Source of the DNA: Risungbinella massiliensis
GTDB taxonomy: Bacteria; Bacillota; Bacilli; Thermoactinomycetales; Thermoactinomycetaceae
Assembly: GCF_000942395.1 (NCBI RefSeq)
Contig: NZ_LN812102.1
Span: 1,400,816-1,464,815 of the forward strand
Reading direction: 5' to 3'
Length of the DNA stretch: 64,000 nucleotides
This document shows, piece after piece, positions 2,107-11,504 of the stretch. Both the position numbers and the translations under genes were made by a program. The first letter of the stretch is position 1. Each line of letters begins with the position of its first letter. The notes below the pieces were generated by a model. That model ran no database searches. It was not told the origin of the DNA and saw only the letters and a list, made by a program, of their open reading frames with translations.

Positions 2107-2138
2107 CTATTTATCCACTGGTTCCATTGGATAAATAG
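2107..2138. promoter_or_regulatory. Large palindrome, candidate regulator-binding box
   Basis: Arms CTATTTATCCACTGG and CCATTGGATAAATAG are 15 bases each with a 2-base centre and one mismatch. No T-run follows on either strand, so it is more like an operator than a terminator. It sits in the divergent region between the lasso-like operon and the HTH-TPR regulator. The sequence TTTATCCAATG inside it also occurs upstream of the second HTH-TPR regulator at 11595-11605. Confidence 0.6.
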
Positions 2139-2218
2139 CCAAAAAATAAATTATTGATAATATTATGAGTTTTATGGGACAATCTTTTTTAACATTATCG
2201 GAGGAGGTATTGATAGTA

Positions 2219-3619
2219 ATGGTCGAAACTCCTTATGAACTCTCGCTTGAACAGCTTAAACACATCGGAAAAATCTTGCGCCAATCGCGAAAAGACCAGA
2301 AACGAATACTAGATGAATTGGCAGATGATGATATTTCCACCTCCACCATAAGTAATCTAGAGCGTGGCGAACGTGTCTCTTGGGAAAAGATCGTGATCTA
2401 TGCACAGAAGTTAGGGTACTCAACAGAGGAAATTCCGAAGCTACTTGAAAACGAACGTGATCGAAACCAACAGCTTCTTCAACAGTTAGAGGATATTGCA
2501 AATCGGATTGATCTAGTTGGGGCGGATAATGCACTGGAGAAGTTACGAAAATTGAAGTTATCTGCAACCAATCCATTAAAAGCAAATGCAGAATATCTGA
2601 CTGGCAAATGTTATACCCGAAAAAAGAAATGGGTAGCTGCTCGAAGCCATTATATGAAAGCTCTTCAAATCATCAAACGTTATCCCGACTTTTACAAAAC
2701 CAATCTAAAATCATCTTGTCATCTCCATCTGGCACGCACGTTTTATTCCCAAGAAAATGACTTAGTCACAGCGTTAAAGCATGCTGATCAAGGCTTGGAA
2801 TCGCTTGTTACTAATACAGAAGAGCAAACTAAGTATTTACTGCTGATCGGGAAAGTAGTCTATTTACAAAACTTAAATCAAGACACAGAAACAGTAAAGC
2901 ATATCATTGACAAACTATGGGAACAAAAAGACCGAATCCAAAGCATTGATGCCGTTATAAGTCTTCATGAAGCAAAAGCTACTTTGCTCAATAAAATGGA
3001 ATTGTATGAGGAAGCATTGGAAAGTGTATTGGAAGGAATTGAACTTGCACAAAAAAATAGCATATTAGATCGAGTACTAGAGTTATTAACAGCTTACGGT
3101 TCCATTTGTATTAGTCTAGGTGACTATGCAAAAGCCGAAAACCATTTAGCTTTAGGTTTGGACATGAAGGACAAAATACGAAAAAAATATCAAAAAGAAT
3201 ACTTGTTTGTGACTACCCTTGTAGTACTAGGGAAATTATTGGTGAAGCAAAAACACATAGAAAAGGCTAGAAATACTTTTATGGAAGCAGTTCAGCTGGG
3301 AGAGAAAACAAAATCAAAAGAAGTATTGAGATACCATGATGCCTTAGTTGCATTAGGTGATTGTGAATTAATGCTAGAAAACTTTCAAGAAGCTACTATA
3401 TCGTATCGTAAAGCATTAGAAATTGCCCAAATCCAATCAACAGCACAAAAGAATCCTATGTTATGGATCGAGAAAGAGCACCATCTTTGGATTAAACTAG
3501 GAATTTGCTATGAGAAGTTTGATAACAATGAATATAAAAAATGTATGGAAAAATCATTTGAGTTTAACGTACAATACATGCAGAAGAAAGGGGTGATCAC
3601 ATGGCTAAACAATTCCTAG
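2219..3619 (+). CDS. RRNPP-type HTH-TPR transcriptional regulator 1
   Basis: The N-terminus is an XRE-type helix-turn-helix (about residues 12-75; ISTSTISNLERGERVSWEKI). The remainder is helical repeats of TPR type (about 130-460; for example GDYAKAENHLALGLDMKDK and ENFQEATISYRKALEIA). This is the layout of RRNPP receptors (PlcR, NprR, Rap, AimR), which bind short re-imported peptides. The start chosen is ATG 2219, behind GGAGGAGGT; an upstream ATG at 2165 has no ribosome site. The 3' end overlaps a 41-aa peptide gene by 19 bases, the usual arrangement of a receptor and its signal gene. It is paralogous to the regulator at 10167-11504. Confidence 0.85.
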   Translation: MVETPYELSLEQLKHIGKILRQSRKDQKRILDELADDDISTSTISNLERGERVSWEKIVIYAQKLGYSTEEIPKLLENERDRNQQLLQQLEDIANRIDLVGADNALEKLRKLKLSATNPLKANAEYLTGKCYTRKKKWVAARSHYMKALQIIKRYPDFYKTNLKSSCHLHLARTFYSQENDLVTALKHADQGLESLVTNTEEQTKYLLLIGKVVYLQNLNQDTETVKHIIDKLWEQKDRIQSIDAVISLHEAKATLLNKMELYEEALESVLEGIELAQKNSILDRVLELLTAYGSICISLGDYAKAENHLALGLDMKDKIRKKYQKEYLFVTTLVVLGKLLVKQKHIEKARNTFMEAVQLGEKTKSKEVLRYHDALVALGDCELMLENFQEATISYRKALEIAQIQSTAQKNPMLWIEKEHHLWIKLGICYEKFDNNEYKKCMEKSFEFNVQYMQKKGVITWLNNS

Positions 3620-3726
3620 TAAATGAACCACCAATCGATAGTCCACTTAGCTACTTTGTAAACGAACCACCTGGAGATGGGCCAATTAATTTCTTTGCAA
3701 CTGAACCCCCAGAACAATCTCCGTAA
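3601..3726 (+). CDS. Candidate signalling propeptide with three EPP repeats
   Basis: A 41-aa ORF in a different frame from the regulator, overlapping its last 19 bases, with ribosome site AAAGGGGTG before ATG 3601. The product contains three imperfect repeats: FLVNEPPIDSPLS, YFVNEPPGDGPIN and FFATEPPEQSP, that is F-x-[NT]-E-P-P. It is acidic and proline-rich and has no classical signal peptide, unlike Phr or PapR propeptides. A terminator follows, so receptor and peptide form a two-gene unit. Its role as the cognate signal is inferred from position and from the similar motif at the end of regulator 2. Confidence 0.72.
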   Translation: MAKQFLVNEPPIDSPLSYFVNEPPGDGPINFFATEPPEQSP

Positions 3727-10166: not shown

Positions 10167-10205
10167 TTAAGCTTCTGGTGGATCAGTTTCAAAATTTTGG
10201 TACAT
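10167..10205 (-). CDS. Possible internally translated 12-aa peptide
   Basis: Inside the last codons of regulator 2, in the same frame, AAAGGAGG stands eight bases before an ATG (10205), giving MYQNFETDPPEA and the same stop codon. The peptide carries the F-x-T-[DE]-P-P-E motif seen in the propeptide after regulator 1. This could be a signal peptide made by internal initiation. It could also be chance, because the codons for Lys-Glu-Asp produce AAAGGAGGAT naturally. Kept as a candidate only. Confidence 0.35.
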   Translation of the reverse strand: MYQNFETDPPEA

Positions 10206-11504
10206 ATCTGTATCCTCCTTTTGATTGTATTCTAACAAACTTTTTGAAAGTGTTTCAATTATTTCATTCGGACTCCTCTTATGTGTCTTAGCAACATTCA
10301 AATAATTCTTTGTTGCTTTAAATTGAAGATCATTTAAGTTGAGCTTTGTCGAAATATCAATTGCTTCATTAAAAGCAACTAGTGAAGCATCAACATCATT
10401 CTTCATCTCATACAATGTTCCTATTAATACACAAACCTCACAGTAAGAACCATGATCATTTGCCGATAATGCTAGGTTTTTAGCCTTTTCTAGGTACTTT
10501 AACGCAGCTTCCAAATTTCCCTGTCGTTGAAACATCTCTCCTAGTTTTTTATATGGAACAACAAGCAAATCATCTCTTGCATCTTCTGCTTTTATAGCTT
10601 CAGTAAAACACGATTCTGCTAGATTCCATTGTTCTAGATGCATCCAACTTGTTCCTAGTGTAGAGTATAGCTCCACAGATCTTTCATGTCTGCGATCTAA
10701 TCTAGCTAATTCTAGACCATAAGTGGCTTCTTTGATTGCTTCACGATAGTATCCCAAATCATTTAACAATCCAGCTTCTAAATCTATTAAACTTAACAAG
10801 ATAGTTGTTGTCTCTACCTTATTTTTAAGAGGTTTTAGATCTTCCAAGCGCTTAAAAGCTTCCATAGTTCTATTCATCTTTTTCAGATAAATGACTTGAG
10901 AGGTTAGAAGATAGTAGTAGACGAACTGCTTCTCTCCATCTTCTTGAAAAGCTCTTATTCCCTCTTCGATAAATAACAGCGCTTTGGCTAGTTTACTTTC
11001 ATAATAAGCATTTCTACTAAGTTCATAGTAAGACAATGCTAAAATATTATCTTTTGAAGATATATTACTGGATTTTGAATACTCAATTGCATTGCGAAAG
11101 TAACTCTCGGCATTGTTCCATAATCTACGCTTTGAGAAGTACTTACCTTTTAAATAACTAACTTTAGGGTGCGTTCCATCTAGGGCTTGCAGTCTTTTCC
11201 ATGCCTCATCTGACCGCGTATCTAACTCCTGCTCAATCATTAGGAGTTCTAAATCTATTAATTCAGATGTCAATTTTTGTGGTTCTTCTTCTAATGAAAT
11301 TAACTCTTCATAAATTAAATTCACCTTAGTACATAAATACCTGAGTTTCTCTTGACTAACATTTCGGTTACCACGTTCTAAATTACTGATTGTACCAGTT
11401 GATAGCATATCATCAGAAAGTTTTTCTATAGATAACCCTAATTCAATTCTAGCCTGCTTTAAACGATCACCCATTGTTGGTGTGATGTAATGATATTTAG
11501 CCAT
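10167..11504 (-). CDS. RRNPP-type HTH-TPR transcriptional regulator 2
   Basis: A 445-aa paralog of regulator 1: N-terminal XRE helix-turn-helix (about 10-70; LSTGTISNLERGNRNVSQEKL) and TPR-type repeats to the end (for example QWNLAESCFTEAIKAED and GNLEAALKYLEKAKNLA). Start is ATG 11504 with AGGTGGAAG upstream; a GTG at 11516 would overlap that site. The C-terminal tail QNFETDPPEA leaves the TPR pattern and resembles the FATEPPE repeat of the peptide encoded after regulator 1. There is a perfect internal ribosome site before this tail (see 10167-10205). It is divergent from a four-gene set at 11752-14484, its likely target. Confidence 0.85.
   Translation of the reverse strand: MAKYHYITPTMGDRLKQARIELGLSIEKLSDDMLSTGTISNLERGNRNVSQEKLRYLCTKVNLIYEELISLEEEPQKLTSELIDLELLMIEQELDTRSDEAWKRLQALDGTHPKVSYLKGKYFSKRRLWNNAESYFRNAIEYSKSSNISSKDNILALSYYELSRNAYYESKLAKALLFIEEGIRAFQEDGEKQFVYYYLLTSQVIYLKKMNRTMEAFKRLEDLKPLKNKVETTTILLSLIDLEAGLLNDLGYYREAIKEATYGLELARLDRRHERSVELYSTLGTSWMHLEQWNLAESCFTEAIKAEDARDDLLVVPYKKLGEMFQRQGNLEAALKYLEKAKNLALSANDHGSYCEVCVLIGTLYEMKNDVDASLVAFNEAIDISTKLNLNDLQFKATKNYLNVAKTHKRSPNEIIETLSKSLLEYNQKEDTDMYQNFETDPPEA

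Follow-up and report, generated by a model that had tools for sequence, protein, structure and literature searches.

A 64,000-nucleotide stretch of the Risungbinella massiliensis genome (contig NZ_LN812102.1, positions 1,400,816 to 1,464,815; the window) carries a gene for an NprR-like receptor, overlapped at its 3′ end by a short open reading frame (ORF) for a repeat peptide that lacks a secretion leader. This arrangement is real, and it belongs to a family-wide variant of RRNPPA-type signalling genes; the pair is one of many such receptor–peptide pairs. Judged from sequence, the 41-aa ORF is quite probably the precursor of the cognate ligand of the adjacent NprR-like factor, leaderless, separately translated and independent of Sec.

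The receptor gene and its overlapping ORF

The features of the locus, all on the + strand, are as follows.

2200..2208: Shine-Dalgarno (SD) site of the receptor gene, GGAGGAGGT, read from the sequence
2219..3619: NprR-like helix-turn-helix (HTH) plus TPR receptor, 466 aa, assigned from protein-family matches and from the model and fold match of the Thermoflavimicrobium daqui orthologue
3587..3596: SD-like site of the short ORF, AAAGGGGTGA, read from the sequence
3601..3726: leaderless precursor, 41 aa, overlapping the receptor gene by 19 nt in another frame
3610..3648: repeat unit 1, QFLVNEPPIDSPL
3649..3687: repeat unit 2, SYFVNEPPGDGPI
3688..3723: repeat unit 3, NFFATEPPEQSP

The receptor ORF extends from an ATG at 2219 to a stop codon at 3617-3619, and shares exactly 19 bases (3601-3619) with the short ORF, as an earlier note on this DNA had claimed; the two lie in different frames. 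That note also held that the product has no signal peptide; indeed the 41 residues contain no hydrophobic stretch, the top 12-residue Kyte-Doolittle mean being 0.25. Its three repeats were found, at a spacing of exactly 39 nt (13 aa), but the proposed motif F-x-[NT]-E-P-P must be widened to [FL]-x-[NT]-E-P-P, since unit 1 reads L-V-N-E-P-P. No Pfam or NCBIfam model matched the short ORF at E-values up to 0.1.

Leaderless ORFs recur at receptor 3′ ends across the family

The receptor was present in 23 of 23 Thermoactinomycetaceae genomes searched, T. daqui among them, with 310 matches at E 1e-30 or better. The best-scoring 125 of these were examined, and likewise 60 of 143 from sister families, so that the fractions below are not census values. 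Near-copies from sister species were kept in the counts, with unique-peptide counts given alongside. A leaderless ORF was defined by an SD match of at least 5 bases, the motif [DENKTQ]PP and no hydrophobic stretch. By this rule such an ORF occurred at 69 of the 125 family loci (70 pass; L095, a signal-sequence propeptide just below the hydrophobicity limit, was excluded). Inspection by eye, where classes are our own judgement, gave 76 of 125, a count that takes in four PDPx peptides and three ORFs whose ribosome site is weaker. The short ORF is thus kept beside homologous regulators, and it is kept at the orthologous T. daqui locus (59% identity).

At least one by-eye candidate was found in 22 of the 23 genomes, although one genome had only a weak TPP form (G005) and another only the PDPx form (G022); in G010 the single receptor was without a leaderless peptide by eye. 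Signal-sequence propeptides were recognised by eye at nine family loci, those with three or four SEPGGL copies including L073 and L094, and the Sec-like rule passes eight of these nine plus a chance reading at L009. A VPIPA form was seen at three family loci. The leaderless peptides have 6-41 aa and an acidic-Pro-Pro core, and an SD match of at least 5 bases precedes 65 of 68 by-eye peptides.

To set a base rate, ORFs of 6-60 aa with an SD match of at least 5 bases and [DEN]PP were counted. Such ORFs were held by 58 of 106 receptor 3′ ends (one locus being counted twice, as L064 and L084), whereas mononucleotide shuffles of these ends (50) gave a mean of 0.04 and a maximum of 1. On both strands of the window only two ORFs qualified, one beside each of the two receptors (2 of 55 long-ORF ends). 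With a base rate so near zero, the short ORFs beside receptors are not explained by chance.

The protein search of the organism's own genome (3.42 Mb, G000) gave 18 receptor matches at 17 loci, one receptor being split in two. With 3′ ends read on their own strand, a leaderless short ORF with a ribosome site was found at 14 of the 17 and was absent at L011, L013 and the broken L017. Twelve of the 14 have D, E or N before PP, and two are weaker variants, TQPP (L007) and PDPEES (L016). Examples are MVRFFREGSLSKNSFVPDPPDVRSYQPDPPDICL, MTFESDPP, MFLFDSDPPEE, MFAFVNEPPDI and MYQNFETDPPEA.

Several loci of the family depart from the single DPP-type ORF. A second, similar leaderless ORF follows the first at L037, L045, L060, L069, L072, L085, L112 and L199, likely by tandem duplication of the signal gene. 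IPDPT peptides, in one or two copies, replace the DPP core at L051, L062 and L068, which form one small receptor clade. At L098, L105 and L118, receptors of another clade, a leaderless ORF MKPGN...VPIPA lies 87-116 nt downstream; it may be a second leaderless signal type.

The peptide is conserved while its frame changes

Among the 69 loci passing the rule, the ORF is in frame with the receptor at 35, overlapping at 10 and separate at 24. This relation switches at least 15 times on the tree while the peptide is kept, which indicates that the conserved unit is the peptide and not the frame. The window ORF (MAKQFLVNEPP..., L001) is out of frame, whereas its T. daqui orthologue (MDKQFSSKILLHIGEPPDN..., L084) is in frame; the two have a common start, M-x-KQF.

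The in-frame set comprised all 38 of the 125 family receptors with PP in the last 20 residues, a selection independent of the SD. At 33 of these 38 loci an SD match of at least 6 bases precedes a start codon upstream of the PP core, against a mean of 6.2 and a maximum of 14 on resampling of synonymous codons (500 draws). For matches of at least 8 bases, 23 were observed and 2.0 were obtained by synonymous resampling. These data indicate that the DNA of in-frame loci retains a ribosome site for which the receptor protein has no need.

Pooled over 19 related pairs, the ratio of non-synonymous to synonymous differences (pN/pS) was 0.45 for whole peptides, 0.26 for the cores and 0.26 for the receptor bodies. 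Where at least one ORF of a pair was out of frame, the values were 0.51 for peptides and 0.26 for cores. All synonymous forms are used at the conserved D, E and P codons. The codons thus show protein-level conservation, and the peptide cores are under purifying selection.

Sister receptors keep a secretion leader

In an order-level search the receptor was found in 42 of 42 genomes, with 143 matches in 19 genomes outside the family. The sister-family loci examined were drawn from families f2-f5, with none from the two f6 genomes. A leaderless xPP ORF was found at 0 of these 60 loci, while 34 of the 60 carried a Sec-like propeptide, most of these beginning 14-17 nt ahead of the receptor's stop codon. 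PP within the last 20 receptor residues was likewise seen in 0 of 60 sister-family receptors, compared with 38 of 125 in the family. Matches at 1e-40 were confined to this order (16 genomes) in a class-level sample of 200 genomes with at most 8 candidates each, and tblastn of the receptor against phages and plasmids gave no match at 1e-5.

Trees were built from 145 of 185 loci by a quick method, with long branches and a midpoint root; broken loci are represented by their longest open piece only, and L004 and L017 are omitted from alignment A1. In this quick 145-locus tree, 82 family receptors formed one clade (SH-aLRT 100) containing all 68 leaderless xPP or PDPx loci of the set, 13 loci without a peptide and one Sec-like locus. 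The other eight family receptors with Sec-like propeptides cluster with sister-family receptors, which are mostly Sec-like. Under a mixture model with 105 family loci, the corresponding clade had 81 rows and support 99. That the leaderless loci fall in one clade suggests that the leaderless state arose once in the family.

Two further forms were seen among the sister families. At the f2 loci L131 and L133 the Sec propeptides bear seven and six tandem FPGP-bearing copies, respectively. At locus L186 a leaderless ORF of 17 aa, ending NNDKPDNG, follows a strong SD; it was not counted as xPP and is a possible independent leaderless case.

Secreted and leaderless precursors end in the same register

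By eye, 64 of 68 peptides contain PP cores, 75 in all, and D or E precedes PP in 66 of these. The C-terminus lies exactly two residues past PP for 49 of the 75. Proline at position −4 from the C-terminus occurs in 52 of 69 leaderless precursors (48 of 65 unique) and in 39 of 42 secreted ones. When the last ten residues were shuffled, the mean was 14.8 (maximum 28) of 65 and 6.3 (maximum 15) of 42, respectively. The PP requirement biases the composition of the leaderless set; the shuffle preserves composition and so tests position only. An acidic residue at −5 is found in 48 of 65 unique leaderless and 23 of 42 secreted precursors. In the secreted set, the −4 proline of L092 sits in a trailing PPLA after EPGWP repeats. 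A single ligand form, small-[DE]-P-(P or G)-x-x, seems to stand at the end of both kinds of precursor. Secreted and leaderless ligands in the same C-terminal register on one receptor tree provide a natural before-and-after set for asking how leaderless signals originate and how they travel.

Receptor class

The RRNPP-type assignment of the earlier note agrees with the domain matches. The C-terminal TPR region of the window receptor scored 71.6 bits against Pfam TPR_12 (cut-off 30.1), and the N-terminal HTH_3 match reached E 4.5e-4 with 20.6 bits, below the curated cut-off of 23. The family profile also hits solved transcriptional regulators in their N-terminal part (5w4m, positions 1-96, E 3.6e-13). 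The AlphaFold model of the T. daqui orthologue, a natural fusion, is helical, with a mean predicted local distance difference test (pLDDT) score of 82.3 from a 3-row alignment. Within RRNPPA its fold is matched best by NprR and Rap, over 340-350 residues: NprR 5dbk_A gave Z 26.4 over 350 residues (root-mean-square deviation 4.4), and several Rap proteins lie near Z 25. When solved structures were searched by sequence, most hits were TPR proteins that do not belong to RRNPPA; the same was true of Foldseek, where Rap took ranks 47-48. The receptor class and the ligand role are well supported, if indirectly.

A proposed mechanism and its alternatives

We propose that the window precursor holds three ligand copies and has a ribosome site of its own on the receptor mRNA, from which it is translated; the anatomy of this site is read directly from the DNA, its use is predicted. 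Peptidases would trim the precursor, and the x-[DE]-P-P-x-x core would bind the TPR domain and switch DNA binding. The pair would belong to a receptor clade without the Sec leader of the sister receptors. The organism's own genome encodes four SBP_bac_5 (oligopeptide-binding) proteins and one homologue of EcsB, a protein related to PptAB. The peptide would most likely exit by a non-Sec route and re-enter through an oligopeptide permease. This route is favoured for two reasons: without it, a ligand that is always co-produced with its receptor would convey little information, and the leaderless communication peptides (LCP) known from the RopB clan signal from cell to cell.

Several observations weigh against this proposal. 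By eye, 37 of the 125 family loci (25 of 105 plus 12 of 20) show nothing that can be recognised as a peptide. The SD of the window ORF is modest, a 5-base match by the rule at a spacing of 4. The last core of the window precursor ends four residues past PP, outside the commonest register, which means that the window copies either end in SP or need trimming at both ends. The residue after the −4 proline differs between the two kinds of precursor, being mostly G in secreted and P in leaderless ones. Eukaryotic TPR proteins outside RRNPPA reach Z 28.5, as high as NprR, so the fold alone does not fix the subfamily. Finally, in the T. daqui fusion model from the 3-row alignment, the tail is undocked (residues 459-495, pLDDT below 50).

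The strongest alternative is that the peptide stays inside the cell throughout, as an intracellular cofactor translated together with the receptor. The clade would then have given up cell-to-cell signalling, and the level of the peptide would report translation or peptidase activity. The by-eye list shows no leader (the rule demands its absence, so the rule-based set is no independent evidence), ORFs are as short as 6-8 aa, and receptor and ligand form one gene unit, in frame at 38 of the 125 loci. Constant co-production, however, would keep the receptor occupied and convey little information, an argument and not data. The genome also holds a possible non-Sec exporter (EcsB) alongside the oligopeptide-binding proteins, and the RopB-clan peptides act between cells, according to the cited part of PMC10518010. 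We regard an internal ligand as a serious, though less probable, explanation. A fuller version, in which the receptor lineage lost its pheromone leader and receptor and ligand, made together and often nested in frame, act inside the same cell as a dozen or more private pairs per genome and not as cell-to-cell signals, is tentative and slightly more doubtful still.

The D/E-P-P-D/E/G cores might instead stall ribosomes, the ORF then regulating translation or mRNA stability and encoding no ligand. DPPD, EPPD and DPPG resemble polyproline stalling motifs, and in 53 of the 75 PP cores the following residue is D, E, G, N or P. The secreted peptides of sister receptors, however, keep the same register with mostly P-G in place of P-P, four family members have PDPx without PP, and a hairpin and T-run lie directly 3′ at several loci (by eye). 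An arrest peptide is thus very unlikely.

We give as little credence to an in-frame C-terminal tail that acts in cis on the receptor, with the separate ORFs as derived remnants. A PP-bearing tail is found on 38 of the 125 family receptors, half of the 76 with a peptide. Against a tethered role, the in-frame SDs are retained well above synonymous expectation and the frame differs within the orthologous pair L001/L084; the undocked tail of the model adds weak evidence.

Although short ORFs are common and the 37 loci lack a recognisable one, chance ORFs without function are a negligible prospect given the near-zero base rate, the pN/pS values and the register common with secreted peptides.

Relation to known systems

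NprR-NprX and Rap-Phr combine a TPR receptor, with an HTH in NprR, and a small gene that overlaps its 3′ end and carries the ligand at the C-terminus. A Sec signal is not universal among RRNPPA propeptides, SHP and LCP being without one; AimP propeptides carry a leader. The present system shares with NprR-NprX and Rap-Phr the TPR receptor and overlapping small gene, and within the same order a Sec leader is retained beside sister receptors; it differs in its leaderless clade and in-frame nesting.

In the cited part of Aggarwal 2023 (PMC10518010), LCP are defined in the RopB clan. Both systems have a very small ORF with a strong ribosome site next to an RRNPPA receptor, and its product carries no Sec leader. 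LCP are short, hydrophobic and mostly 8-10 aa, whereas the present peptides are 6-41 aa with an acidic-Pro-Pro core, 1-3 copies per precursor, an NprR-like receptor fold and 38 of 125 ORFs in frame inside the receptor. Its NprR and Rap fold matches may set the receptor apart from the RopB clan, RopB itself lying outside the direct comparison. The best reading would be a system that works like the RopB-clan LCPs and is yet a distinct variant.

A DPG motif is described as widespread in mature peptides of AimR and Paenibacillaceae subfamily 08 in the cited part of PMC12700828, which also mentions leaderless peptides for the five-TPR clan. The secreted peptides of sister receptors here have comparable D/E-P-G cores, but the receptor clan is another and the leaderless peptides have DPP or EPP. 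For Alo12 of Paenibacillus polymyxa, a conserved short ORF without a hydrophobic signal sequence beside an RRNPP-like receptor is noted in PMC7425212; there one clade is remarked on in passing, the cited part giving no core motif, nesting or change of state.

According to the cited text of PMC10075063, the strict level of the RRNPP detector requires a Sec signal or an SHP match, and its defaults are 10-100 aa, ATG starts and an overlap of at most 60 bases. At its loose level some ORFs described here might be picked up, but such defaults would miss those of 6-9 aa and the more deeply nested ones. Its main text names the family once, in connection with four biosynthetic clusters close to RRNPP systems; some family receptors are therefore already in that data set. 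In the main text of PMC9765709 neither the family name nor 'leaderless' occurs. Among top-ranked literature matches, with subscription papers, preprints and supplements outside the scope, no leaderless [DE]PP peptides or in-frame nested signal genes were found. Ligands are now predicted for 76 of the 125 receptors examined, in a family whose peptide signalling is scarcely present in the literature searched. A signal gene can also hide in frame within a receptor gene, where annotation would miss it.

Neighbouring genes and the second receptor of the window

Upstream of the receptor gene the window contains the following features.

2107..2138: near-perfect 32-bp palindrome CTATTTATCCACTGG-TT-CCATTGGATAAATAG, between the receptor and the divergent genes, a candidate operator
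1132-1981 (− strand): genes divergent from the receptor, namely a PqqD-like gene (1132-1410), a lasso-type precursor (1503-1631) and a gene for a 117-aa protein

The palindrome was rejected as a common operator: it occurs exactly in 2 of 209 loci, both this same place, and it is not upstream of the T. daqui orthologue, where the best palindrome is another. The lasso-type precursor matched the NF033521 leader model at 31 bits (cut-off 19). No protease or cyclase was found among its scanned neighbours; two matches to Transglut_core3, the lasso protease type, lie elsewhere in the genome. The lasso-type genes are a possible target of the receptor. They were discarded as a conserved target cluster, not being apparent by eye among ORFs of at least 40 aa around the T. 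daqui orthologue.

The second receptor of the window belongs to the same family (L015).

10167..11504 (− strand): receptor of 445 aa, counted from the ATG, whose C-terminus contains the in-frame peptide
10167..10205 (− strand): leaderless peptide MYQNFETDPPEA, nested in frame and preceded by an SD of its own (7-base match)

Elsewhere in the genome, the receptors at L004 and L017 are broken by an internal stop or frameshift, and at L004 the peptide ORF is still open.
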